This document shows positions 4,971-31,208 of a stretch of 64,000 bases of DNA, one piece after another. Numbering within the stretch: the stretch's first letter is position 1; each line of letters starts with the position of its first letter. The stretch comes from an uncultured Spirochaetia bacterium (GTDB taxonomy: Bacteria > Spirochaetota > Spirochaetia > CAKZLE01). The notes beneath the pieces were generated by a model, which was not told the DNA's origin, did not search any database, and saw only the letters and a program-made list of their open reading frames with translations. The stretch is taken from contig CAKZLE010000035.1 of NCBI GenBank assembly GCA_937125225.1, forward strand, positions 1-64,000. Reading direction: 5' to 3'. Position numbers and translations under genes: made by a program.

Positions 4971-6431
4971 TTACAGCCCAACTTTCTCGTTGAATTCTGT
5001 GATAAGTGCATCGATCTTTGGTTCAAGAGCCTGGATTCTAGTCCAATATTCTCTGTCATACCATTGTGCATTGAGGTCTTCAAGTTCTTTTCCCTGCTGC
5101 TCGATCCATGTGTAGTATTTGAGGTTGTGCACTGCGAGTCTGTCATAGTAGCTGAGTTCTTTTGCATGTTCCATGGTCTGGTGCATGAGAGAAGCCTGAT
5201 AGGTTCCTGCAGCATCCTTAGGAGTGAACTCTCCTCGAGCCTTATTCATCTCTACAAGACGAGATTCATACATCTCAGCTGAGTCTGTTAGAACAGTCAC
5301 GATTACATCATCTGCTTCCATCTCATAGTATTTAGCCATTTTGATAGCACCAAGAACATTTCCGATTCCTGAGATTCCAAACAGTTCCAGTTTTTCGATG
5401 AACTCTTTAGTGACACCATCTTCTAGAAGTTCTTTTTTTCCGTTCTCTTCATTGAAGAGTCTGAAAAGGTCCATACAGTCATTATCATCAACAGCAAGGA
5501 TCATATCGGTGTTTCTTACGTTGTGTATCCAAGGAACATGTTTGTCACCGATTCCTTCGATTCTATGACCACCAAAACCATTTCTTAAAAGTGTAGGGCA
5601 CTGGAGTGCCTCAGCAGCTCCGACTAGTACTTCTGGATATCTCTGTTTTAGGTAATCTCCAGCAGCTAGAGTTCCACCAGAACCTGTTGCTGATACATAA
5701 GCTTTGAGTTGACCTTTGGAGATTTTCTCAGCATTGAGTAACTCTTCGATAGCAGATCCTGTGATAGAGTAGTGCCAGAGGTAATTCTCGAACTGGTCGA
5801 ACTGATTGAAAATTACGATGTTGTCACCCCGTTCAGCATTCAATTCATGACACTTGTCAAAGATCTCTTTTACATTACTCTCACAACCAGGAGTTGCGAT
5901 GACTTCACCAGCTACTTTCTGTAACCAATCGAATCTCTCTTGGCTCATCTCTTCAGGAAGTATAGCTATTGAGTCACAACCGAGAAGCTGTGAGTTATAG
6001 GCTCCACCTCTACAGTAGTTACCAGTTGAGGGCCAAACTGCTTTTTGAGCTGTTGAGTCAAAGTTTCCAGTAGTAAGCGCAGGGGCTAGACATCCGTAAG
6101 TCGCTCCTACTTTATGAGCTCCTGTTGGGAACCATTTACCGACTAGAGCAAAGATCCTAGCTTTTGTTCCTGAGATCTCTCTAGGGATTTCAATATAGTT
6201 TACACCATAATGTTTCCCACCTTTTTCTACAGGTTCGTTTTTCCATGTGATTCTGAAGAGATTCACAGGATCTACATCCCAAAGACCTGTCTTAGCGAGT
6301 TTATCCTCGATATTCTTAGGGTTGAGTGAAGGGTCCTTCATCTGTGCGAATGTAGGATATACAATCCCTTTTTCTCTACATCTTTGAATGTTTTTTTCTC
6401 TAATCTCTTCATGCATGGTTAAATCTATCAT
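4971..6431 (-). CDS. fold-type II PLP-dependent enzyme (cysteine synthase/tryptophan synthase beta superfamily)
   Basis: The 486-residue product is a PLP lyase or synthase of uncertain substrate. The likely Schiff-base Lys is in WFPTGAHKVGATYG, STGNYCRGGAYNS is a substrate-binding loop and SATGSGGTLAAG is the glycine loop for PLP phosphate. It is longer than cysteine synthases (about 310 residues) and than YgeX diaminopropionate ammonia-lyase (about 400). I see no YgeX-type signature. GGAGG lies five bases before the second ATG (6431), preferred over 6434. A minus-strand promoter lies upstream. Its place back-to-back with the purine operon makes a role in ammonia-releasing steps possible, but that is inference. 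Confidence 0.8.
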   Translation of the reverse strand: MIDLTMHEEIREKNIQRCREKGIVYPTFAQMKDPSLNPKNIEDKLAKTGLWDVDPVNLFRITWKNEPVEKGGKHYGVNYIEIPREISGTKARIFALVGKWFPTGAHKVGATYGCLAPALTTGNFDSTAQKAVWPSTGNYCRGGAYNSQLLGCDSIAILPEEMSQERFDWLQKVAGEVIATPGCESNVKEIFDKCHELNAERGDNIVIFNQFDQFENYLWHYSITGSAIEELLNAEKISKGQLKAYVSATGSGGTLAAGDYLKQRYPEVLVGAAEALQCPTLLRNGFGGHRIEGIGDKHVPWIHNVRNTDMILAVDDNDCMDLFRLFNEENGKKELLEDGVTKEFIEKLELFGISGIGNVLGAIKMAKYYEMEADDVIVTVLTDSAEMYESRLVEMNKARGEFTPKDAAGTYQASLMHQTMEHAKELSYYDRLAVHNLKYYTWIEQQGKELEDLNAQWYDREYWTRIQALEPKIDALITEFNEKVGL

Positions 6432-17342: not shown

Positions 17343-18182
17343 ATGATTTCAGATTTGATTATCAGTAAATCACTTACAGAACTTCTACAACATAGAGCAG
17401 AACTAGGATCACGAAGTCTGTTCATTGCTGGTGGTACGGAGATAAACAGGCTAGACTCTCCTCATTCCGATGGTTCTTTCATCGGTCTGAGTATGGAGAA
17501 TCTTGGTTTAGATGAGATTAGGGAGACTGAGGCTGGTATCACCATTGGTGCGATGGTCACTCTTCAACAGCTGATCGATTCGCCTGTAATCCCTGACTAT
17601 ATAAAAGCTGCTGCAGGATTCGCAGGATCCAGGACTTTAAGGAATATGGCTACAATTGGCGGAAATATTGCCTCATGTAGGGATGATTCCTACCTGCTAC
17701 CTACCTGTATTGCAGCTAAGGCTAGGATACATACTATCGATATCGATCGAAAAGGGGAGATCCTCAATGAGGATATTCCAATAAGAGAATATGTTGAAAA
17801 TTTCGAGAATTTCTCAGGCTGTTGTCTGTCAGAGATATTCATCAAGAAACAGGATCGTTTCGTGAAGACCCGAAGATACTCTCGGACGGCTCAAAGAACA
17901 CCTGATGCCCTTATCTCTTTTGGTTCAGATCTGAAAGAAGGTGTTTTGACTGATGTTCGGATTGCCGTCGGGTCTCTTGGATGTGGGATCAAACGTCTTC
18001 CTATTATCGAACAAAGTGTGATGAATAGAGATCTTCAGAATGAGGAACAATGCTTGATGGCTGTGAAAAAAGTGATTGAACCTGCTGATGATATAACAGG
18101 AAGTTCGGAATATAAACAATATTTAGTTGGTATTACCATAACAGACCTTATGAATGAGGCCTTAGGGGGTCATGAAAGATGA
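17343..18182 (+). CDS. ygfM: YgfM-like FAD-binding subunit
   Basis: The 279-residue protein is a second FAD-binding molybdenum-hydroxylase subunit, with FIAGGTEINRL (about 27-37) and LRNMATIGGNIASCRDDSYL (about 99-118). It resembles E. coli YgfM, which likewise precedes xdhD. GGGAGGAG lies just before the ATG. Its last codons overlap the start of xdhD, so it is the natural FAD partner of that protein. Identity to the other FAD subunit in this operon is limited to the family motifs. Confidence 0.85.
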   Translation: MISDLIISKSLTELLQHRAELGSRSLFIAGGTEINRLDSPHSDGSFIGLSMENLGLDEIRETEAGITIGAMVTLQQLIDSPVIPDYIKAAAGFAGSRTLRNMATIGGNIASCRDDSYLLPTCIAAKARIHTIDIDRKGEILNEDIPIREYVENFENFSGCCLSEIFIKKQDRFVKTRRYSRTAQRTPDALISFGSDLKEGVLTDVRIAVGSLGCGIKRLPIIEQSVMNRDLQNEEQCLMAVKKVIEPADDITGSSEYKQYLVGITITDLMNEALGGHER

Positions 18183-21052
18183 AGATCGCTTGTAAGATAA
18201 ATGGTGTATTCAAAGAACTCTTTGGTGATGCTGGGATAAGTCTACAGAAAGTACTCAAGAAAGAGGGCTATATATCAGTAAGAGACAGTGATGATGCAGA
18301 GGGGTTTGCAGGAAGTGATACGATACTGGTAAATGGTATACCCGTCTATGCAAATCTTATTACCTTGGCTCAAGTTGATGGAAAGGAGATTGTCACCCCA
18401 GAATCACTTTTAAGGGGTAGACGACTCAGTGTCGTACAACAGGCAATGATCGATGCTGGAGTAGTTCAGTCAGCATATAATGCTCCTGCAGCAGCACTCT
18501 TGATCACAGAACTCCTCGAAAGGATCAAAGATCCCACAGAGGTAGAGATTAAAGATGCTCTATCAGGGCTTTTCAATAGGGCTACAGGATATAAACAGTT
18601 TTTTACCGCTGTAAAACTAGCAAAGGAACGTATGAATGATCCTGGCTATACGACTGAGATAGCTCCTGAATTCAGGGATGATCTGAGAATCGTAGGAAAG
18701 GTGAAACCAAAGGTTGATGGGGCTAAACTCGTATCTGGGCAAAGAGCTTTTGTAGAGGATATGGTTGAGCAGGGTTCCTGCCATCTGAAGATGCTCCGAT
18801 CTCCTCATGCCCATGCCTATATCACTCAGATTGACACTCAGGATGCAGAAGAACTACCTGGTGTGGTATCAGTTATAACCTATAAGAACTGTCCCGATGT
18901 CTATTATGGCTCTGCTGGTCAGGGATTCCCTGAGCCTTCACCTTATGACAGTAGGATGTTCAACCAGAAGGTCAGACATGTTGGTGACAGGGTCGCTGCA
19001 GTAGTAGCCGAGACTCCTGAGATCGCCCTTGAAGCGATCAGCTTGATCAAGGTTGAGTATGAAGTCTTGAAACCGATATTTACCGTTGATCAGGCAATGG
19101 CACATGACGCTCCAGTCGTGCAGAATGGGGTGGTTGAGTATGTAGTCGGTGCACCAGATAATCTAAATGAATATAATCAGAGTTCTGATAGTCGGGATGG
19201 TAAGGTCATTTATCAGTTCCCGCTTCATGCTGATTCACATAAGAACATCGCAGCAGGAGCACATGGGGCTATTGGTGATATAGATTCTGGTTTCAGTGAG
19301 GCAGATACGATCATTGAGAGGACCTATGAGACTTCACAGATTCAATGTACTCCATTAGAGACCCATATCTCCTATGCGAAGATGGATAATGACCGAGTCG
19401 TGATTCATGCATCGACTCAGGTACCATGGCATTTAAGAAGGATTGTTGCAGCTGCGCTCGGAATCAGCGAAAACAAGATACATGTAATAAAAGAGCGAGT
19501 TGGTGGAGGCTATGGTTCAAAACAGGATATCTTGTTAGAGGATGTAACAGCTTATGCAACATTCACTACGGGAAGACCAGTACTCTATCACTATTCCCGT
19601 GAAGAGGAATTCATTGGTAATAGTACTCGCCATCCTATGAAGATAACTGTTAAACTCGGTTCTAAGCGTGATGGAAAACTCACAGCTGTATATATGGATG
19701 TCAGAGCCAATACAGGACCTTTCGGAAACCATTGTCTGACAGTTCCGATGAATGCTTGCTCGAAATCCCTACCTCTTGTCCTCTGTGATAATATGAAGTT
19801 CGATGTGACTACCTATTATAGTAATATACCTCCTACCGGGGCTTATCAGGGGTATGGAGCACCTAAGGGAAGTTATGCGCTCATGACGGCTCTCGGAGAA
19901 CTTTCAGCAGAACTTGGTCTCGACCTCCTCGATATCCTTGAGATGAACAGAGTTCGTGAGGGTTCTCTGTTGGAAATCTTAAGATGCCTTGGTGAAGGCA
20001 GAGAAGGAACACCTGCCCTAGTAAAGAGTTGTGGCCTCGATGGCGCGCTCTCTATAGGATCAGAGATGATTGACTGGAAAAAAGATGAACTATCAGATGA
20101 TCCGAATATTTCGGTTGGAAAGGGTGTTGCTATTATACAACAGGGCTCTGGTCTTCCTGGTTTGGACCATTCTTGTGCTGACATCAAGATGCTTGCAGAT
20201 GGGACGTTCATGTTACACTCTGGTGGAGCAGATCTCGGTACAGGTCTAGATACTGTATCAGTGAAATTTGCAGCAGAGGTCCTCTGTGTTGATATGGAGC
20301 AGGTATCGATACTTTCAGGTGATACCGACAATACTCCCTTCGATACAGGCGCCTATGCATCAAGCGGGACCTTCTTTTCTGGGAGTGCTTCTAAATTAGC
20401 GGCTGAAGACCTAAAAGCTAAGATCCTTGAGGCTGCAGCAGTCTCTTTAGAGGAAAAGGTAGAATACCTTAGTCTTCAGACCCCTGGAAAGGTAGTCTCT
20501 CAGAGTGGAAAGGAGATCACCTATTGGCAGTTAGCTCAGGATACTCAGGCAGGACTTGGTATGGGGCAACTCATGGGTTATGCATCATTCACAACAGAAG
20601 ATGCAGCTTTCCCTTATGGTGCGCATTTCTGTCAGGTCTCAGTTAACAAGAGGACTGGTGAGATCAAACTCGATAAATACTATGCTTTGCAGGATTGTGG
20701 TACACCAATAAATCCTGAGTTGGCTTTGGGCCAGATCTATGGTGGAAGTTTCAAATCTATAGGTCATACTCTTTATGAGGATATGATCTTAGATGACAAT
20801 GGTACTTGTCTCACTACTGATCTCAAAGATTACGGAGTTCCGATGATCTCAGAGCTTCCAGAAGATTTTCAGGCCATACTGATCCCCACTGATGATCCTT
20901 ATGGACCATTCGGTAGTAAATCGGTATCAGAGATCAGTTGTAATGGAGCCGCTCCTGCTATAGCGAATGCAATATATGATGCAGTAGGTGTATGGATGAG
21001 AACATGGCCTTTCACCCCTGAGAAGGTACTTAAGGCTTTAGGAAAAATTTAA
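18179..21052 (+). CDS. xdhD: XdhD selenium-dependent molybdenum hydroxylase
   Basis: The 957-residue protein matches the E. coli XdhD layout and length: an N-terminal ferredoxin-like region (about 1-160) fused to a full molybdopterin-binding part. Every cysteine that would bind [2Fe-2S] clusters in that N-terminal region is absent; the positions read SDDAEGFAGSD and GVVQSAYNAPAAAL, and the CRCTGY site is NRATGY. This degenerate domain also occurs in E. coli XdhD, as I recall it, so it is a family trait rather than damage. Molybdenum-site motifs are intact: ERVGGGYGSKQD, GAYQGYGAPKG, GGADLGTGLDT and GPFGSKSVSEIS with the catalytic Glu. It probably acts on xanthine, hypoxanthine or urate-related purines with YgfM. 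The start overlaps the ygfM stop. Confidence 0.9.
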   Translation: MKIACKINGVFKELFGDAGISLQKVLKKEGYISVRDSDDAEGFAGSDTILVNGIPVYANLITLAQVDGKEIVTPESLLRGRRLSVVQQAMIDAGVVQSAYNAPAAALLITELLERIKDPTEVEIKDALSGLFNRATGYKQFFTAVKLAKERMNDPGYTTEIAPEFRDDLRIVGKVKPKVDGAKLVSGQRAFVEDMVEQGSCHLKMLRSPHAHAYITQIDTQDAEELPGVVSVITYKNCPDVYYGSAGQGFPEPSPYDSRMFNQKVRHVGDRVAAVVAETPEIALEAISLIKVEYEVLKPIFTVDQAMAHDAPVVQNGVVEYVVGAPDNLNEYNQSSDSRDGKVIYQFPLHADSHKNIAAGAHGAIGDIDSGFSEADTIIERTYETSQIQCTPLETHISYAKMDNDRVVIHASTQVPWHLRRIVAAALGISENKIHVIKERVGGGYGSKQDILLEDVTAYATFTTGRPVLYHYSREEEFIGNSTRHPMKITVKLGSKRDGKLTAVYMDVRANTGPFGNHCLTVPMNACSKSLPLVLCDNMKFDVTTYYSNIPPTGAYQGYGAPKGSYALMTALGELSAELGLDLLDILEMNRVREGSLLEILRCLGEGREGTPALVKSCGLDGALSIGSEMIDWKKDELSDDPNISVGKGVAIIQQGSGLPGLDHSCADIKMLADGTFMLHSGGADLGTGLDTVSVKFAAEVLCVDMEQVSILSGDTDNTPFDTGAYASSGTFFSGSASKLAAEDLKAKILEAAAVSLEEKVEYLSLQTPGKVVSQSGKEITYWQLAQDTQAGLGMGQLMGYASFTTEDAAFPYGAHFCQVSVNKRTGEIKLDKYYALQDCGTPINPELALGQIYGGSFKSIGHTLYEDMILDDNGTCLTTDLKDYGVPMISELPEDFQAILIPTDDPYGPFGSKSVSEISCNGAAPAIANAIYDAVGVWMRTWPFTPEKVLKALGKI

Positions 21053-21115
21053 AACAGCATACTAGATGATGAAAGTATGAGTAATAAACCGTTTGTTGGA
21101 GGATGGGAAAAGAAT

Positions 21116-22312
21116 ATGGATAAAAACGAAATTAAGAATCTTATCGAAAAATTAAGTGAGTTGGATACAGATAACATGTATCTCAATGACTTCTTTCATA
21201 CTTGGAAAGAAAGTGATGATGAACTGTCAGCAACCTTTGCTGTAGCTGATATCCTGAGAGGAATGAGAGAGAATAATATTTCGTCTAAGGTCTTTGACAG
21301 TGGATTAGGGATCTCTCTATTCAGAGATAACTCAACTAGGACTCGATTCAGCTATGCTAGTGCTTGTAACCTTCTAGGCCTTGAAGTTCAAGATCTTGAT
21401 GAGGGGAAAAGTCAGATTGCTCACGGTGAAACAGTACGTGAGACTGCAAACATGATCTCTTTCATGGCTGATGTTATTGGAATCAGAGATGATATGTATA
21501 TCGGAAAAGGTCATACCTATATGAAAGAGGTAGCAGAGGCAGTCGAAGAAGGTAACAAAGATGGTGTTCTTGAACAGAGACCGACTCTTGTGAATCTTCA
21601 GTGTGATATTGACCATCCAACCCAATCTATGGCTGATATGCTTCATGTCATTCATGAGTTAGGTGGAGTAGAGAACCTCAAAGGAAAGAAGATAGCCATG
21701 ACTTGGGCCTATTCACCTTCTTATGGAAAACCACTTTCAGTTCCTCAGGGAATCATAGGGCTTTTCACTAGAATGGGTATGGACGTAGTTCTTGCGCATC
21801 CAGAAGGGTATAATGTGATGCCTGAGATGGAAGAGATTGCTGCAGAGAATGCAAAAAAGAGTGGTGGTTCTTTCACTCGTGTAGATAGTATGGAAGAGGC
21901 TTTTGTAGATGCCGATATCGTTTACCCAAAGAGTTGGGCTCCTTTTTCCGTCATGGAAGAGAGAACACAGCTTGTTGAGGATGGAAAATTCGATGAACTC
22001 AAGGATCTTGAGAAGAAATGTCTTGATCAAAATGCTCAGTTCAAGGATTGGGAATGTACTGAAGAACTTATGGCAAAGACAAAAGATGGTAAAGCACTCT
22101 ATATGCATTGCCTACCTGCCGACATAACTGGTGTGAGTTGTGAAGAGGGAGAAGTTGCTGCTTCAGTATTTGATAGATATAGAGTTCCACTCTATAAAGA
22201 GGCTAGTTTCAAACCTTATATCATTGCTGCAATGATCTTCTTGAGTAAGTTCGAAGATCCTGCTACTAAATTACAGGAATTATTAGATTCTGCTGAGAAG
22301 CGAATCAAATAA
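21116..22312 (+). CDS. ygeW: YgeW knotted carbamoyltransferase
   Basis: This is a carbamoyltransferase of the YgeW type with a trefoil-knotted fold, one of the core anaerobic urate-degradation genes. Carbamoyl phosphate is bound by FRDNSTRTRFS; the family-typical DEGKSQIAHGETVRETANMIS and the late HCLPADITG are present. It may release carbamoyl phosphate from a ureido product, feeding ATP formation via carbamate kinase (none in the window). An earlier in-frame ATG at 21077 exists; 21116 aligns better with known YgeW starts, and GGAGG lies upstream, although 13 bases away. It is the last gene before a strong terminator. Confidence 0.9.
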   Translation: MDKNEIKNLIEKLSELDTDNMYLNDFFHTWKESDDELSATFAVADILRGMRENNISSKVFDSGLGISLFRDNSTRTRFSYASACNLLGLEVQDLDEGKSQIAHGETVRETANMISFMADVIGIRDDMYIGKGHTYMKEVAEAVEEGNKDGVLEQRPTLVNLQCDIDHPTQSMADMLHVIHELGGVENLKGKKIAMTWAYSPSYGKPLSVPQGIIGLFTRMGMDVVLAHPEGYNVMPEMEEIAAENAKKSGGSFTRVDSMEEAFVDADIVYPKSWAPFSVMEERTQLVEDGKFDELKDLEKKCLDQNAQFKDWECTEELMAKTKDGKALYMHCLPADITGVSCEEGEVAASVFDRYRVPLYKEASFKPYIIAAMIFLSKFEDPATKLQELLDSAEKRIK

Positions 22313-22407: not shown

Positions 22408-23436
22408 TTAGTGGTCATAGATCTCATTATCAATGAAGATATCTACTAGGCGTGGGTCAAATTGAGTACCTGAACTGATCTTAAGTTCTTCGGTAGCGAA
22501 TTCTTTAGGAAGTGCCTCCCGGTAGGGACGGGTACTTGTCATCGCATCAAATGAGTCTGCTATGGTAACTATTCTTACTAGAAGTGGGATCTCTTTTCCT
22601 TTAAGTCCATCAGGATATCCTTTCCCATCAAAACGTTCATGATGATTCCTGATAATAGGCAGATATGGTTTAAACAAGTCAATATATTCAACGATTTTAA
22701 CTCCTGCCTCTGGGTGTAGCTTAATCGTTGCGTATTCTTCTTTGGTAAGGAGCTCTTTCTTGTTGAGTATCTGTTCAGATATTCCGATCTTTCCGATATC
22801 ATGAAGAAGTGATCCTCCTTCTAATATGATCATTTCTTCAGAACTCAATGGTAGGAATTCTGCTATCTTCAAGGCTAATGTTCGAACCCTACTACAATGA
22901 CCCTTTGTATAGACATCTTTCTGTTCTATGGTCTCAGAAAGAGCCTCGATAGTTGCCATTGCTGTCTTCATGATTGTTGAGTATGCCTCATCAAGTTTGA
23001 ATTCAAGGTCCTTCTGATAGGTTGTATTTATATTGAATGCATTTGATTTAGCTCGTTCTTCCTGAGCTTTAGCTAGTACTCTTTTTACACAGTCAAGAAG
23101 TTCCGCTTTTCTTACCGGTTTTGAAAGAAAATCTGCAGCACCCTCTCTGATTGAATGCATTCCAGTCTCAAGATCACTGAACGCCGTCATCATGATGATG
23201 GGAATACTCGGATAGTTGCGATGAATGATCGGTAGTACCTCTAGGCCTGATTTTCCAGGCATCTTGATATCTAGGATGATCAAGTCGATTTTTTCACTAT
23301 TCTCTAAAAGAGACTCGAGCAATTCATCCCCGTTGGTACATTTAGTAACTTGATAATCAGCTTTCATTAATATGAGTTCAAGGACTTTTCGAATCGCTGG
23401 GTCATCATCAGTTGTAATAATATGTTGCTGTCTCAA
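22408..23436 (-). CDS. response regulator with HD-GYP cyclic-di-GMP phosphodiesterase domain
   Basis: The 342-residue two-domain regulator has a receiver (about 1-120) with the acidic pocket D10-D12, phospho-acceptor D56 in IILDIKMPG, T84 and K106, followed by an HD-GYP domain (about 150-340). The latter shows HCSRV, LLHDIGKIGI and HHERFDGKGYPDGLKG, so c-di-GMP hydrolysis is likely. Its ATG overlaps the stop of the ICMT-like gene by four bases. The large histidine kinase starts divergently next to this pair and is the obvious candidate partner, although pairing is inferred from position only. Confidence 0.92.
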   Translation of the reverse strand: MRQQHIITTDDDPAIRKVLELILMKADYQVTKCTNGDELLESLLENSEKIDLIILDIKMPGKSGLEVLPIIHRNYPSIPIIMMTAFSDLETGMHSIREGAADFLSKPVRKAELLDCVKRVLAKAQEERAKSNAFNINTTYQKDLEFKLDEAYSTIMKTAMATIEALSETIEQKDVYTKGHCSRVRTLALKIAEFLPLSSEEMIILEGGSLLHDIGKIGISEQILNKKELLTKEEYATIKLHPEAGVKIVEYIDLFKPYLPIIRNHHERFDGKGYPDGLKGKEIPLLVRIVTIADSFDAMTSTRPYREALPKEFATEELKISSGTQFDPRLVDIFIDNEIYDH

Positions 23437-23999
23437 GCTTTATGATCTCCCTTTAGAAAAACGTTCTTGCAGGATAGAATGAATGGTACAGCTTTTTTAT
23501 AGGTGTCATATCCCTTAAAAGTCTTAGGGAAGATATACTTATCTTCTATAAGGATAAGTAAAAAATTCCAAGCTGTCAGAATCATCATAAGAAGAAAAAG
23601 CTTCAAATTCCAAGCTACGAACATTATATTTATACAAGTATACCAAATAAATCCTGGATGTCGAGAGAAACTATAAGTTCCATAACAATATATTTCAGGC
23701 TCATTTTTATCGCAGTTAATTGGTTTCGATCGATGATAATAAAGTGGTATCTCTATCAGTACAGAATACACCAATAACAGAGTGAGAAGGAATAAGACAA
23801 ATAGTATGATATACTCATAAAGAGTTAGCTGGACAAATCCGTATTTGCCTATTAATATGACATAGGGTAGACCTGTTAATAAAAAACCGACAGAACTCAT
23901 ATACCTGATTAGAGGTTTATTATATAATTGTGATAAATCATAAATGAATAGCAGGATATATCCTGCGGAGCCTAAAATAAATAATTTGATTAATTCCAT
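23433..23999 (-). CDS. ICMT-like membrane methyltransferase family protein
   Basis: The 188-residue membrane protein has about five hydrophobic segments and the signature FSRHPGFIWYTCINIMF, typical of isoprenylcysteine carboxyl methyltransferase and phospholipid methyltransferase-like proteins, followed by a conserved KYIFPKTFKGYDTYKKAVP end. In bacteria the substrate is generally unknown. It precedes the HD-GYP regulator with a four-base overlap. Its start lies within the divergent promoter of the histidine kinase gene. Confidence 0.75.
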   Translation of the reverse strand: MELIKLFILGSAGYILLFIYDLSQLYNKPLIRYMSSVGFLLTGLPYVILIGKYGFVQLTLYEYIILFVLFLLTLLLVYSVLIEIPLYYHRSKPINCDKNEPEIYCYGTYSFSRHPGFIWYTCINIMFVAWNLKLFLLMMILTAWNFLLILIEDKYIFPKTFKGYDTYKKAVPFILSCKNVFLKGDHKA

Positions 24000-24013
24000 T
24001 ATTTATCTATACT
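23986..24013 (+). promoter_or_regulatory. promoter for the histidine kinase-GNAT gene
   Basis: TTGATT (23986-23991) and TATACT (24008-24013) are 16 bp apart, about 44 bp before the ATG. The -35 box overlaps the first codons of the divergent ICMT-like gene. Confidence 0.5.
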
Positions 24014-24056
24014 ATTACGAACGGGCACAATTGAAAAGTACATAAGAGGATTCTAC

Positions 24057-27000
24057 ATGATAATTGATGTGTCGACCATAATTCCAGCTATCGCATTCAT
24101 CCTTTACGTCGTATTTGCCGTATTTGGTTTTTTGCAGTATCGAAAGGATAGATTCTACTGGTCATTTCAACTCTATATGATATTTTTTGCAATCTGGAGT
24201 TTTGGCTCGATGATGATGCATCTCAATAGCTCAATATTAACTCCACTAGCGTGGAACAAGGTAATGCTTGTTGGACTGCTTTCTGCACCATTCCCACTTG
24301 TTCATTTCATTCTTGATATAATGGAGATCAAGATCAGGTCCATTAGACTCTTTGTCTATTATAGTTATCTATTCATTTTGTTATTACTTTATCTGAATAT
24401 CTCTGGCCAGGTCGTATCTGGTGCTGAGTTCGATGAAATGGGAAACTTCCATTATATATTGGGTAGAGGTGCAGTAATTGCCTATTCCATAGCATATGTC
24501 TATATGATATTGACTCTGTTGATACTTTTCATCGGTAAGCGATCGAAGAACAATATGCATTACGGCAAAGATATCTATCTGCCACTTATTGGTGTTGCGA
24601 TCACGCTTATTGGTATTGCGACAAATATCAATCCTATCCTTGGAAGATATCCTTTCGATATACTTGGTGCTACTATCAATGCATTCCTTCTTTTCTATAC
24701 GATCTATAAGTTCAAGCTAATTAACTATTCTCGTCTGGGTCTGAGTATCATCTTTTCAACGATACTTGCCATTGTTGCAGCTTTAGCCTATTTTGTGATT
24801 CTTTTTATGATCAGTATATTCAATGAGGACTTTGCTCCCTACAATATTACTCAATTATCAATTGTGCTGGGTATTGTCACCGTTATTGTTATCCATCCTA
24901 TCCGGAATTTCATATCCTATCTCATCGATAAGATTATCATCCCTAAACGGCACCCCTATCAGGGAACGATCAAGGGGTTGAGTCAACGACTTACTACGAT
25001 CGTAGATCTCAATGAACTTGGAGAAGAGGTTGTCGGAACGTTGAAGAATGGATTGAAGACAGATTGGGTCTTATTTGTAGTTAAAGAGATAAATGACTCT
25101 GAGGACATGTTCAAAGTTATATCTAATAATAATTGTAAAACAAATGTTAAGCTAGGAGCTAAAGTGAAATTCACTTTCACCGAAAAGGTGAAGCGCCAAT
25201 TGATGAATTTTCAGAAAGAGAATTCCAGTTCTATACTCTACGCGACTCCAGATGAACCAAAATTCATGACAAGTGCTAAACTCCCTGATTCTGACGTAAT
25301 GATACCTCTCATCTTCAGAAAGAAGATAGCAGGTTATATCCTCATAGGTTTCGACTATGAGAAGATCATGATGTCAAAGATAGAACTCGAAGCTTTAGAG
25401 ATCCTTGCTGCTCAATGTTCACTTTCATTGAAGAACGCACTATCTTTTGAACAACTCAGGAATCAGGGAAATGAACTGATCATGAGTAATAATAAACTCG
25501 AGGCTATATTTAATGGTATCGCCTCTCCTGTCTGTATGATCGATATTGATTATACAATCAGAGAGGTCAACAGTGCTGCCTGTGGCTTTGTTGGTAAGAA
25601 TAGAGATGAAATGATAAGTAAGAAGTGCTACAGGGTCCTCTTCAATAGAACAAGACCTTGTTCCTACTGTAAAGCCTTGGATTGTCTACATGCGGGTGCA
25701 ATGAAGACTACAGAGGCGGAAGTAGAGGATAAGGTATATTCGTTCCAGTTCCATACCATTCGAGTTCCTCAAAACTCGAAAGGACAGTTCATTGAAATCA
25801 TCAACGATGTTACTGAGACAAAAACTCTTCAAGAAGAGTTGGTGAGAACTGAGAAAATGGCAGGAATCGGAACATTGGCAGCTGGAATAGCTCATGAGTT
25901 AAATAATCCCCTAGCTGGAATTCTTGGAACAGGAGAAATTATGCTTTCAGACATCGAAGAGGATTCCCCTATGAAGGAGTATATCGAAGATATTATATCG
26001 TACTCCAAGACAGCAGCAGATGTAATCAAAGAGTTATCAGTCTATACGAGAAAAGAAGAGAAAGAGATGCAAGAGGTAGATATCGTCAGGGTTCTTGAAT
26101 TCTCTTTAAGGTTGGCTTCTAGAGGGAGTGAATCAAAGAATATCACGGTAAAACGTAATTATCATGCATTACCGACGATAGAGGCGAATGAGAGTGAGTT
26201 ACAACAACTGTTCCTAAATCTCATAGTCAATGCAATGCATGCTATGGATGGAAAGGGCACTTTGACTCTTCATTGTAAAGAGATTAAAGGTTTTGTCCAT
26301 GTATCGGTAAAAGATACTGGATCTGGAATATCTGAGAAGAATCTAAACCAGATCTTCACTCCCTTCTTCACTACAAAAGCTCCTGGTAAAGGAACTGGTC
26401 TCGGTCTATCGAACTGTTATAAGATCGTAGAGAATATGGATGGTCGTATTAGAGTAAAAAGCGAAGAAGGCCAGGGTGCAGAGTTCCTTGTAATCTTTCC
26501 CATAAACGAAGATGGCAAAACGAATATAAGTTTCTCCCTGGTAACCGATGATGCAGCATTGAATGATGTATTCTATATACAGAGAAAAGTCCTAGTAGGT
26601 GAAAAAGGTTATCTTGAGGAATCGATCCATAGAGATATTGATGAGAAGGCAGTACATATTCTGGCCTATCAGGGTATACAACCAGTTGGAACCGTATCAC
26701 TACTCACATCAGACCATGTCTGGCCACTTCCAATATCTAAGAACTTTGATATCGAATCTGTTCTTCAGACGAGAAAATGTTCTGAGATCATACGATTAGC
26801 GGTACTTCCTGAGATGAGGAATACTACCGTTTCGATAGGACTGATCATGCTCGTATTCCTGTTTGCACGTTATCTTGGTGTAGAGGAGATGATCATCGAT
26901 GTATTCCAGAGTGATAAGAAGACTATCAAACTCTATAAGAAATTCGGCTTCAAGGAGGTCGGAGTATTCAATTCACCAGATCCCGTAACAGTTTTGATTC

Positions 27001-27200
27001 TACAAAGTAAGACTACCTATGAAAAGGATAACAAACAATTACATCATTTCATCAAACCCTTATATAAGAAGTTGATCAATATGTTTGATTTTGGTGAACA
27101 TACACCGGGGATCATTGAAGAGATGAACAGAATAGTACCATTAGAGGTTGTTGAACAGACTGCAGAAGTGAATGACTATCTAGATGAGTTCATACCTTAG
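24057..27200 (+). CDS. large membrane histidine kinase with C-terminal GNAT/N-acyltransferase-like domain
   Basis: The 1047-residue product combines sensing and a possible acyl transfer. The first 290 residues contain seven or eight membrane spans of the histidine-kinase 7TM type. A GAF-like region (about 310-460) and a PAS domain (about 475-590, with the Cys-rich stretch [15 protein letters not shown]) follow. Kinase motifs are the H-box [12 protein letters not shown] (phospho-His 613), the N-box [18 protein letters not shown] and [10 protein letters not shown]. Beyond the ATPase (about 825-1010) is a GNAT-like region with [17 protein letters not shown] and [14 protein letters not shown], resembling FeeM-type N-acyl-amino-acid synthases. 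AGAGG precedes the ATG. It has no receiver domain; the divergent HD-GYP regulator is a likely target. The end overlaps the convergent SDR gene by 21 bases. Confidence 0.85.
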
Positions 27201-27974
27201 TCGAATAAGATATTCTACCAATCTGGTTGGAAGGAATCTGCGTAGAAAGTACATTCTGCGTGTTCTCTTTCCAATCGGATTATAAAGAGCAGGACTTTTT
27301 TTGCCGATTATCTTGAAAATCTGATTTGCAACATACTCCGGGCTCATCCCGTCAGAAATACTCTTGTCTCTCTTTGTTTTAGAAGCTGAAAGTTGTTCCT
27401 CATAGATTTCTGTCACATCATCATTATTGATTTGAGGCAAGGATGTGTTTACAAAATCAAAAAAGACATTAGATACGAATACTCCAAACTGAAACATCTC
27501 ACTTCTAAAAGCGAAAGCATAGGCATCTAAAGCTGCCTTGGTCGCGGCATAAATAGAAGAGAAGGGAACCGGAGTGTGCGCCGCGAGGGAACTAACATGG
27601 AGAATCTTTCCTCTACCGGTGATACGCATCTTTCTAGCATAAAAGCTATCCAATTGTATGGTGCCAAATAAATTGATTCTAAAAAGATCCTCGACTGTCT
27701 CAGACCTGAGATCCTCTACAGCCCCTATCTGTGATAGTCCGGCATTATTGATTAGGATATCAGCCTCTGGTACAGTTTCACAAAATGAAGAAATCGAATG
27801 TAAATCTAATAGATCAAGGTTCACATAATGAACTCCGGGTATGATATTCTCACTACTTATGGTATGTATATTCCGTGAGGTACCAGTTACTTTATAACCT
27901 GCATCGATACAGATCTGAGCTAATGCTAGGCCGATTCCCTTAGATGCGCCAGTGATGATGATGTGTTCTTTCAT
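27180..27974 (-). CDS. short-chain dehydrogenase/reductase
   Basis: The 264-residue classical SDR uses NAD(P)H to reduce or oxidise a carbonyl or alcohol. TGASKGIGLALAQ is the cofactor-binding motif, NNAGLSQIG the structural motif, and the catalytic Ser-Tyr-Lys set is in HVSSLAA and YAATKAALDAYA. The substrate is unknown. It overlaps the end of the histidine kinase gene on the other strand and is separated from the permease gene by that gene's terminator. Confidence 0.88.
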   Translation of the reverse strand: MKEHIIITGASKGIGLALAQICIDAGYKVTGTSRNIHTISSENIIPGVHYVNLDLLDLHSISSFCETVPEADILINNAGLSQIGAVEDLRSETVEDLFRINLFGTIQLDSFYARKMRITGRGKILHVSSLAAHTPVPFSSIYAATKAALDAYAFAFRSEMFQFGVFVSNVFFDFVNTSLPQINNDDVTEIYEEQLSASKTKRDKSISDGMSPEYVANQIFKIIGKKSPALYNPIGKRTRRMYFLRRFLPTRLVEYLIRLRYELI

Positions 27975-28044: not shown

Positions 28045-29325
28045 CTAAGCTAAGAGCTTTAATACGAACAGGATAGCGATAACGATTGTGAGGACGTTAA
28101 CCTCTTTTGCTTTTCCGGTACAAAGTTTGAGGAGTACCCATGAGAGCATTCCGACCATGATACCATCAGCAATACTATAAGCTACCGGCATGATGATGAG
28201 GGTCAAGAAAGCTGGAATTGCTTCTGTGTAGTCATCAAAGTTGATCTCTTTAACTGGTGAGATCATGAATAGACCTACAAGGATCAATGCTGGAGCTGTT
28301 GCAGCACCAGGGATCGCCAGGAATAGAGGTGATACGAAGAGTGCTAAGAGGAATAATACTGCAGTAGTAAGAGCTGTAAGACCAGTTCTTCCGCCTTCAG
28401 CTACACCTGCAGAACTCTCTACATAGGTTGTTACGGTACTTGTTCCAAGACATGCACCTACAGTTGTTCCAATAGCATCTGCCATAAGAGCTTGTTTGAC
28501 TTTAGGAATATTACCTTTACTGTCAATCATACCAGCTTTGGTAGATACACCAATAAGTGTTCCAACAGTATCGAACATATCGACAAAAAGGAATGTGAAA
28601 AGAACGATAAGCATATCGAATGTGAATACATTAGCAAACTCGAACTTGAACAGGATCGGAGCAAGTGAAGGAGGAGCCCAACTTCCGTTTGGAGCCTGTG
28701 TGATACCCATAGGAGCACCAATAAGAGTTGTCGCTACGATACCGATAAGTAACGCACCTTTTACCTTGAAAGCAAGAAGTACACCTGTGATGACAAGACC
28801 GATGACTGCAAGAAGAGCAGTACCAGAGGTGAGGTCACCTAGGGATACAAGAGTAGCACTGTCAACGATGATACCAGCATTCTGGAAACCAATGAATGCG
28901 ATAAAAAGACCAATACCTACAGATATAGCTTTTTTGATGTTCAGTGGAATACAGTTGATGATAGCTTCTCGTACGTTGAAGATCGTCAAGATAATGAAGA
29001 TGATACCTTCAAGGAATACAGCAGTTAATGCGAACTGCCATGTGTAGCCCATGGTCAATACGACTGTATATGCGAAGAACGCATTGAGTCCCATACCTGG
29101 AGCAAGAGCAAAAGGCAGATTAGCAGCAAAGGCCATAACCAATGTTGCAATAGCTGCTGAAAGAGCCGTAGCGGTAAAGAGTGCACCAAAATCCATTCCT
29201 GTTTCACTCATGATCAAAGGGTTTACAATAAGAATGTACGCCATTGTCAGGAATGTTGTAAGACCTGCTAGTACTTCAGTCTTCACATTGGTTTTGTGCT
29301 CCTGAAGTTTAAAGAATTTTTCCAT
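28045..29325 (-). CDS. NCS2-type purine permease (AzgA/PbuG-like)
   Basis: The 426-residue polytopic transporter of the AzgA-like branch probably imports adenine, guanine or hypoxanthine by proton symport. Family features are the start FKLQEHKTNVKTEVLAGLTTFLTMAYI (cut here into its motif positions 6-30), ALAPGMGLNAFFAY and FLFVDMFDTVGTLIGV, plus GTSTVTTYVESSAGV. About 12-14 membrane segments are visible. The ATG at 29325 with AAAGGAG upstream is preferred over a TTG one codon earlier. It is divergent from adenine deaminase, with a shared operator-like repeat between them, so uptake and deamination are probably co-regulated. Confidence 0.9.
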   Translation of the reverse strand: MEKFFKLQEHKTNVKTEVLAGLTTFLTMAYILIVNPLIMSETGMDFGALFTATALSAAIATLVMAFAANLPFALAPGMGLNAFFAYTVVLTMGYTWQFALTAVFLEGIIFIILTIFNVREAIINCIPLNIKKAISVGIGLFIAFIGFQNAGIIVDSATLVSLGDLTSGTALLAVIGLVITGVLLAFKVKGALLIGIVATTLIGAPMGITQAPNGSWAPPSLAPILFKFEFANVFTFDMLIVLFTFLFVDMFDTVGTLIGVSTKAGMIDSKGNIPKVKQALMADAIGTTVGACLGTSTVTTYVESSAGVAEGGRTGLTALTTAVLFLLALFVSPLFLAIPGAATAPALILVGLFMISPVKEINFDDYTEAIPAFLTLIIMPVAYSIADGIMVGMLSWVLLKLCTGKAKEVNVLTIVIAILFVLKLLA

Positions 29326-29360
29326 CAATCCTCTCCTTTAGAAATTGTTAATACCGAATC

Positions 29361-29389
29361 ATTGTACTATGTTTGGCTGGCCATGTACA
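29361..29389 (-). promoter_or_regulatory. promoter for the purine permease
   Basis: On the minus strand TGTACA (29389-29384) and TACAAT (29366-29361) are 17 bp apart, 36 bp before the ATG. The TGTTGC repeat lies about 15 bp upstream of the -35 box. Confidence 0.5.
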
Positions 29390-29403
29390 GAAAAAAATAA
29401 TTA

Positions 29404-29423
29404 TTTGTTGCAATATGTTGCAG
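29404..29423. promoter_or_regulatory. putative operator, two TGTTGC units 10 bp apart, in the ade/permease divergent region
   Basis: TTTGTTGCAATATGTTGCAG carries TGTTGC at 29406-29411 and 29416-29421. It also contains the perfect inverted repeat TGCAA-N4-TTGCA (29409-29422), so a dimeric regulator could bind. It matches 16 of 20 positions with 6591-6610 upstream of ygfK. It overlaps the likely -35 box of ade. Confidence 0.55.
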
Positions 29424-29446
29424 GCAAGTATGCCACATGGTATTAT
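29418..29446 (+). promoter_or_regulatory. promoter for adenine deaminase
   Basis: TTGCAG (29418-29423) and TATTAT (29441-29446) are 17 bp apart, 26 bp before the ATG. The -35 box is inside the second half of the operator-like repeat, a position that would suit repression or class II activation. Confidence 0.5.
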
Positions 29447-29471
29447 AAAAACACACCAGATTGGGGGAGTT

Positions 29472-31208
29472 ATGACAGAAATAGAGCGTATGACGCAATT
29501 TATAGATATAGCAGCTGGAAGAAAGAAGGCTGAACTTGTGATAAAACATGCAAAAATCGTAGATGTCTTCAATCATAGAATCATTGAAGGATCATTAGCC
29601 GTTGCTCAAGGAAAGATCATTGGTATCGGAGCTTATGAGGGGGAGCATGAGTTAGATGCACATAATTCATATATCATACCCGGTCTTATAGATTCTCATG
29701 TACATATCGAATCCGGTATGGTATCTCCGGAACACTTTATCAGAACAGTCTTACCGTGTGGTACAACTACTATCATAGCAGATCCTCATGAGATCAGTAA
29801 TGTCTCGGGTCTTGCTGGAATTAAATATATGCTTGATGCGACAAGGAATGTCCCTATGAATGTATATATGATGTTACCCTCTTGTGTTCCAGCGACTGAA
29901 TTTGAACATTCAGGTGCTAGACTAGACTCTGATGCTATCAGGTCACTCATCGATGAGGATAGAGTATTAGGTCTTGGAGAGATGATGGACTATCCAGGAG
30001 TAGTATCCGGTAATGAGCAGATTATCAAGAAACTTCTGGTGGTAAGTAACAATGGCAAGAGAATAGATGGACATAGTCCGATGTTGGAGGGGAAAGACCT
30101 CACAGCCTATGCTGCCGCTGGTATCTCAACCGATCATGAGTGTTCGACTGTAGATGAGATGAGGGACCGACTCTCCCGAGGGATGTATGTTCTGATTAGA
30201 GAGGGGTCAGCGGCGAGGAATCTGTCTGATCTGATCAGAGGGGTTAATGAACATAATTCAAGAAGATGTCTGTTTTGTACTGATGACAGACAGCCTGAAG
30301 ATATCCTAGAGACCGGTCATATCAATAACCATCTGAGATTAGCCGTCTCCTATGGAGTAGATCCAATCACAGCTGTTCAGATGGCAACCATCAACGCTGC
30401 AGAATGTTATGGACTCGCTAAGGTTGGTGCCATAGCTCCAGGATTTCAAGCAGATTTTCTTATTGTAGAGGATCTAGAAACATTTACAATCAAACATGTT
30501 TATGTGAAAGGACGACTTGAAGCTAGCAACGGGCAGATGGTCAGGACTTTCGATGAGCAGTCAATAAGTTCCGTATCAGGTACTATGCATGTAAAAGAGT
30601 TTCCGATCGAAGCATTGAGACTACCGCTAGAAAGTGATCTTGCAAGAGTTATCAGAATTACAGCCCATAGTCTTGTAACTGAGAATGTGATTAGGAAGGT
30701 TTTTCGTAATGAGGGTGGTGATTTTATCTCTCATGAGAATCTTGATCTATTGAAACTCGTTGTCGTGGAAAGACACAATTCTACAGGTAATATTGGGATA
30801 GGTATTGTTGAGAATTATCATTTGAAGGGTGGGGCCGTCGCGACTACTATCGCTCACGATTCTCATAATATCATCGCTATTGGTGATAATGATGAGGATA
30901 TTTATTGTGCTATTTCCGAACTAATCAGAATTGAGGGAGGTATCACGATGTGTGCTGATGGAAAGGTGATAGATTCTCTTCCACTACCTATTGCCGGTCT
31001 CATGACGAACAGAACATCCGAATTCGTGAAGGTGAAACTCCATGAGATGCATGAGAAGGCCACAAAGATCTTTGGTATTAATAGTGATATCGATCCCTTT
31101 ATGACCTTGAGTTTTATGTCATTGCCAGTTATTCCAGATCTAAAACTAACGGATATGGGACTTTTCGATGTTCGAAAGTTTGGTTTTACCAATATTTCGA
31201 TAATATAA
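29472..31208 (+). CDS. ade: adenine deaminase
   Basis: The 578-residue amidohydrolase of the bacterial adenine deaminase family turns adenine into hypoxanthine and ammonia. Family motifs include PGLIDSHVHIESGMVSPEHF, LPCGTTTIIADPHEISNV, GHSPML, STDHECSTVDEM and the C-terminal MCADGKVIDSLPLPIAG. The open frame begins at 29373, but the ATG at 29472 with GGGGGAG before it gives the usual length. Hypoxanthine made here would be the substrate of the molybdenum hydroxylases in the upstream operon. It ends three bases from the convergent ABC ATPase gene. Confidence 0.95.
   Translation: MTEIERMTQFIDIAAGRKKAELVIKHAKIVDVFNHRIIEGSLAVAQGKIIGIGAYEGEHELDAHNSYIIPGLIDSHVHIESGMVSPEHFIRTVLPCGTTTIIADPHEISNVSGLAGIKYMLDATRNVPMNVYMMLPSCVPATEFEHSGARLDSDAIRSLIDEDRVLGLGEMMDYPGVVSGNEQIIKKLLVVSNNGKRIDGHSPMLEGKDLTAYAAAGISTDHECSTVDEMRDRLSRGMYVLIREGSAARNLSDLIRGVNEHNSRRCLFCTDDRQPEDILETGHINNHLRLAVSYGVDPITAVQMATINAAECYGLAKVGAIAPGFQADFLIVEDLETFTIKHVYVKGRLEASNGQMVRTFDEQSISSVSGTMHVKEFPIEALRLPLESDLARVIRITAHSLVTENVIRKVFRNEGGDFISHENLDLLKLVVVERHNSTGNIGIGIVENYHLKGGAVATTIAHDSHNIIAIGDNDEDIYCAISELIRIEGGITMCADGKVIDSLPLPIAGLMTNRTSEFVKVKLHEMHEKATKIFGINSDIDPFMTLSFMSLPVIPDLKLTDMGLFDVRKFGFTNISII

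Follow-up and report, generated by a model that had tools for sequence, protein, structure and literature searches.

The window (the whole stretch of 64,000 nucleotides analysed here from an uncultured Spirochaetia bacterium) carries at 24057..27200 of the forward strand one uninterrupted frame with an ATG start, which encodes a histidine kinase-acyltransferase fusion of 1047 amino acids, as judged from the open frame, its domains and its orthologues. From the N- to the C-terminus the protein consists of a 7TM sensor, GAF, PAS, HisKA, HATPase and a C-terminal acyltransferase (AT), all on the same strand. The HisKA_7TM membrane sensor covers residues 12-223 (24090..24725; PF16927, E 4.6e-10) and is present in 14/14 orthologues. 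It is followed by a GAF-like domain at about residues 295-465 (24939..25451), a PAS domain at residues 480-589 (25494..25823; PF00989, PF08448; Pfam PAS match at 480-532), HisKA at residues 606-668 with the invariant phospho-acceptor H613 (25872..26060; PF00512) and HATPase_c at residues 711-816 with invariant N and G boxes (26187..26504; PF02518, E 3.2e-25). The two-component kinase signature is complete, and H613, N721/N725, D753/G755/G757 and G779/G781/G783 are invariant in 14/14 orthologues. The initial annotation had read the same series of domains in this single frame; Pfam recovers every one of them except GAF, which has no Pfam match in the window fusion protein itself and is represented by GAF_2 matches in 8 of the 14 full-length orthologues.

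The FeeM-like AT domain occupies residues 825-1008 (26529..27080) and was assigned from PF21926, its fold, Foldseek, hhalign, residue counts and dN/dS; E910 and R913 are invariant and the GxG loop is absent. Residues 1009-1047 (27081..27197) form a tail which is poorly conserved in the alignment, and the extent of 825-1047 first given for the domain is thus slightly longer than its conserved part, about residues 825-1008. The two GNAT-like motifs quoted in that annotation, of 14 and 12 residues, are present at residues 911-924 and 958-969.

In the PAS domain, alignment counts show C524, C535 and C538 invariant in 14/14 orthologues and C543 conserved in 10/14. The corresponding pattern CYxxF...PCxxC...C lies at 25626-25685 of the window and is possibly a metal or redox site, through which the kinase may receive a further redox or metal signal. 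Membership of the PrsK family (XrtA/PEP-CTERM/exosortase kinase) was also considered and rejected, as the protein scores 95.1 bits against the TIGR02916 cut-off of 300 and matches over the kinase core only.

Two genes are found divergently upstream on the reverse strand. An ICMT-like integral-membrane methyltransferase (MT) of 188 amino acids lies at 23433..23999, identified from hhalign to ICMT, ICMT Pfam matches and motif counts, and its stop codon is overlapped by the gene of a response regulator with an HD-GYP domain (342 amino acids, 22408..23436; PF00072 E 2.7e-28, PF13487 E 5.8e-34). Both neighbours had been noted in the initial annotation, as a methyltransferase-like gene and an HD-GYP regulator, and they proved to be real and conserved. 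A divergent spacer of 57 bp (24000..24056) is common to both transcripts and contains a TATACT/TAATA element conserved in relatives. In most close relatives this spacer measures 53-62 bp, and its conserved, nearly symmetric TATACTAATA element may serve transcription both ways. At its 3′ end the fusion gene shares 21 bp (27180-27200) with an SDR gene that runs towards it on the opposite strand; this SDR gene (27180-27974) is not conserved among the loci. The flanks at 17343-22312 and 28045-31208 hold putative genes for molybdenum hydroxylases, a YgeW-like carbamoyltransferase, a purine permease and an adenine deaminase, and the genes of the upstream flank are syntenic in several relatives and not in distant ones.

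In the MT the motifs GxYxxxRHPGF and (E/Q)D...FP...Y..Y...PF are conserved, and the RHP motif and acidic pair of ICMT are retained as RHPG in 32/32, D153 in 32/32 and E152 in 29/32 members. The hhalign comparison with ICMT gave E 5.4e-12, against 0.04 and 0.77 for the controls. The ICMT Pfam model matches 10/12 members with a best E-value of 1.7e-5; the window protein stays below the cut-off (10.9 bits vs 24) and one relative passes it with 24.4. When the MT structure model was compared with the PDB, ICMT ranked first at an E-value of 0.6, which is not significant, and a PDB sequence search with the MT alignment gave no matches. In the regulator the residues of the HD, HDIGK and HHE motifs, together with the phospho-Asp of the receiver (D56, H212/D213, H241, H265/H266/E267, P275 and D294), are invariant in 9/9 sequences and GYP is kept in 8/9.

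The linkage of the fusion to both genes is strong and not absolute. Among the 39 loci with enough upstream sequence, MT is found in 36 and the HD-GYP gene also in 36, the latter count including L059, which ends at the contig edge, among its exceptions. MT is absent beside the fusion in one clade (L065, L068, L071), where two of the genomes have a copy elsewhere (G103, G123). The HD-GYP gene is absent beside L057 and L067, and no close homologue occurs elsewhere in G017. As each gene is absent from some loci, neither is obligatory in cis.

The distribution of the fusion was surveyed in several sets of genomes. The AT domain occurs in 14/60 genomes of the same class, where it is always part of a fused frame some 1000 amino acids long, and the full-length proteins of 13 other genomes are collinear with the window protein along about 1030 residues, with identities of 40-72%. 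When GTDB contigs were scanned with the AT alignment, the kinase fusion was found in 45/45 loci. The collinearity and these 45 loci together exclude a chance architecture, and the loci rule out a rare, one-off fusion; the taxonomic survey proposed in the initial annotation thus reveals a widespread protein. All but one of the 45 loci belong to Spirochaetota, where they come from Sphaerochaetaceae and a number of uncultured groups; the exception is a contig of a Solidesulfovibrio MAG (L073, NZ_JARKOZ010000173.1). Presence in Desulfobacterota was rejected, since this contig proved to be a chimera joined within a histidine kinase gene, with 99.5% identity to the spirochaete contig LVBN01000048.1 from base 6314 onwards. 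No other FeeM match in a kinase-length frame was found in 198 Desulfobacterota genomes. In a Spirochaetota sample of 393 genomes, 15 of 16 matches are the fusion and one is an ordinary GNAT. One of these 15, in the complete genome G416 (L156:1879-4998), has a kinase frame broken in the sensor region into 216 and 776 amino acids, which reflects a sequencing error or else the decay of this copy. In the genomes and loci surveyed, no close relative of the AT domain stood outside a fusion, and no viral relative was seen.

The AT and kinase distances are strongly correlated (r = 0.956, Mantel p 0.001), and the distances of AT, kinase and sensor are almost proportional (r 0.96-0.98), so the parts have travelled together in evolution. 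In 8 close pairs the dN/dS of the AT is 0.006-0.06, as low as that of the kinase core. The domain is therefore under strong purifying selection and functional, and a frame artefact or a decaying domain is ruled out.

The nature of the AT domain was analysed by family models, profiles, structure and active-site residues, and the resemblance to FeeM held in each type of test. The Pfam FeeM model PF21926 matches residues 850-969 of the window protein at E 6.4e-10, and the score of 39.5-42.6 bits is above the curated cut-off of 27; the GNAT model PF00583 is weaker at 1.9e-6. Both models match 42/42 AT members, with best E-values of 2.2e-15 and 1.4e-10 respectively. PF21926 also catches an ordinary GNAT from the same genome, at 28 bits just above the cut-off, which makes the Pfam name weak evidence by itself. 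The profile-profile comparison by hhalign is more discriminating for this question than Foldseek: stand-alone FeeM proteins align at E 4.6e-16 over 140 columns and ordinary GNATs at 1.1e-9 over only 62. By its sequence profiles, then, the AT is nearer to FeeM-type N-acyl amino acid synthases than to ordinary acetyltransferases. The LuxI Autoind_synth model is absent from the Pfam matches of the domain, which were taken to E 1, and from those of every AT member.

The AlphaFold2 model gives a confident GNAT-type fold (pLDDT 87.9, pTM 0.85), as the initial annotation had expected, and Foldseek matches it across the whole GNAT superfamily. Among the matches listed, the highest query-normalised TM scores belong to the AHL synthase BjaI (0.61) and to FeeM 2g0b (0.60; chain 2g0b_D, rmsd 2.8), with acetyltransferases at about 0.45-0.56, in a fold that is common to the superfamily. 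By E-value, the top matches in Foldseek and in the PDB sequence search are acetyltransferases such as SACOL1063. In the active site, R843, E854 and D862 are invariant in 42/42 AT sequences along with E910 and R913, and hhalign places E910 on the Glu of the canonical FeeM strand AEvsRLAV (xExxRLAV). The acetyl-CoA pyrophosphate loop (Q/R)xxGx(G/A) is missing; R921 is kept and Gly occurs at position 924 or 926 in 0/42. A Glu at this strand is also found in some GNATs. Since this is so, and since an ordinary GNAT passes PF21926, the AT is here termed a divergent FeeM/LuxI-type acyltransferase, a name that stops short of calling it an N-acyl amino acid synthase. The equivalent catalytic Glu of Nas354 has been shown to be essential (PMC4897644), and in LasI Glu101 and Arg104 have the same spacing as E910 and R913 (PMC9654057).

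A second version of the locus was found by searching with the sensor region of the kinase, which retrieved more distant 7TM-GAF kinase homologues without AT (hhalign 5e-39, 452 columns). In G062, G095, G118 and G309 such a kinase lies directly behind MT and a GH3-family protein as an MT-GH3-kinase operon, and G103 has a GH3-kinase pair too. These loci are all in other Spirochaetota (L184:1881-7927, L185:1333-7403, L186, L187 and L231), and the G062 kinase bears a C-terminal REC. The MT of the GH3 operons is of the same subfamily (80-123 bits, vs at most 37 for ordinary ICMTs), all three GH3 domains are above their cut-offs in G062 and G095, and 9/9 genomes with strong MT matches in a 296-genome sample also have one or other kinase. 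GH3 proteins are best known in plants as acyl-acid amido synthetases, which join carboxylic acids to amino acids. A GH3-family synthetase apparently replaces the fused AT in these AT-less loci. That two unrelated amide-forming families stand at the same place beside the kinase and MT is the strongest argument for an AT substrate of the acyl-amino acid type, and not for proteins.

The computational work establishes the fusion architecture, its conservation in Spirochaetota, its linkage to MT and REC-HD-GYP, and catalytic signatures that are intact for each of the four activities. The best explanation of these, to which we assign a probability of about 0.5, is a membrane two-component sensor with a catalytic FeeM/LuxI-type N-acyltransferase at its C-terminus, feeding the HD-GYP regulator. 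The AT would transfer an acyl chain from acyl-ACP or acyl-CoA to the amino group of an amino acid or a comparable small molecule, and the ICMT-like MT would methylate the free carboxylate, giving an amphiphile like an N-acyl amino acid methyl ester. The 7TM/GAF/PAS kinase may monitor this AT/MT product, some condition that is altered by it, or the membrane or redox state; if it monitors its own product, synthesis and sensing would be coupled within one polypeptide. Phosphotransfer from the kinase to the HD-GYP regulator would then alter c-di-GMP hydrolysis. The GH3 replacement, the ICMT-like partner and the intact HD-GYP output are comparative evidence in favour of the suggestion in the initial annotation that the fusion might make or sense an acylated signal.

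Other readings of the AT were weighed against this one. The GNAT fold, the best PDB E-values and the PF00583 matches in 42/42 members would all suit a regulatory protein acetyltransferase acting on the kinase itself, on the HD-GYP regulator or on some further protein. We regard this as improbable, since no sequence out of 42 has Gly at either GxG position, the alignment with ordinary GNAT profiles spans no more than 62 columns, and the associations with ICMT-like and GH3 proteins are left unexplained by it. It is slightly less probable still that the domain is a non-catalytic sensor of acyl-ACP or acyl-CoA which informs the kinase of fatty-acid supply: a covalent kinase fusion is a natural site for a sensor and there is precedent for acyl-carrier binding by the FeeM fold, but the catalytic Glu and the other polar residues are invariant in 42/42, and it is an enzyme family, GH3, that takes the equivalent place.

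A catalytic AT could also act with MT to build a structural envelope aminolipid, the kinase reporting on the state of the envelope with no signalling molecule involved. Lipids of the N-acyl amino acid kind are known from cell envelopes, and the membrane MT partner and the 7TM sensor would fit such a role; however, the OlsB-type model PF13444 matches 1/42 members, weakly, and no lipid genes are conserved in the loci beyond the three-gene core, which makes this the least probable of the alternatives. Returning to the sensor with a catalytic N-acyltransferase, its fullest form would be a self-contained lipid quorum- or self-sensing system in Spirochaetota, in which one polypeptide makes and senses an N-acyl amino acid signal or its methyl ester and sets c-di-GMP, with a sister version where a GH3-family synthetase takes over from the fused synthase. 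We put this forward as a tentative idea that is possible and still rather doubtful.

In the open-access literature searched, neither a kinase-GNAT or kinase-FeeM fusion nor such a locus was found described. The parts are of known kinds; what appears to be undescribed is their covalent joining and its conservation, together with the GH3 alternative and the MT-GH3-kinase operon. There is a real chance that the locus points to an undescribed lipid signalling system. If so, signal synthesis, sensing and c-di-GMP output would be joined in a single conserved locus, in a phylum about whose cell-to-cell signalling little is known, and there would be a testable role for bacterial proteins of the GH3 and ICMT-like kinds.

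The components may be compared with known systems. Like the ICMT/PEMT methyltransferases, MT has the GxYxxxRHP and E(E/D)...Y..Y...P motifs and membrane helices, whereas it forms its own subfamily with EDxxxFP replacing EExxL and lies mostly below the Pfam cut-off. The MT-GH3-kinase operon (G062, G095, G118, G309) shares with the fusion locus a homologous 7TM-GAF kinase and an MT of the same subfamily, and differs in that a separate GH3-family protein replaces the fused AT and no adjacent HD-GYP gene is seen. The AHL synthases LuxI/BjaI resemble the AT in fold (TMq 0.61, BjaI) and in the E-x-x-R spacing, although the AT lacks a LuxI family match and the locus a LuxR partner.

The FeeM synthases (PF21926; 2g0b; Nas343/Nas354) have in common with the AT a GNAT-like fold, the absent GxG loop, the Glu of xEvxRLAV and profile similarity over 140 columns, but canonical stand-alone members reach 130-170 bits with the FeeM model against about 40-56 for the AT. 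Fusions of NAS enzymes with a c-di-GMP-binding domain have been described before, that of Nas354 being of the PilZ type (PMC4897644), whereas the AT is fused to a complete histidine kinase. A precedent for every step of the proposed logic comes from the Rpf system, where RpfC binds the synthase RpfF and holds it in check, perceives DSF and switches on RpfG, an HD-GYP protein (PMC5391125). No RpfF-type crotonase-family synthase is conserved in the spirochaete loci, where the FeeM-like synthase candidate comes from an unrelated family and is joined covalently to the kinase, the kinase is of 7TM-GAF-PAS type without REC or Hpt, and MT is an additional partner. The likeness to the Rpf/DSF system of Xanthomonas (RpfF-RpfC-RpfG) lies in the arrangement: a membrane kinase, an HD-GYP response regulator and a lipid-type signal synthase, putative here, which is physically coupled to the kinase.
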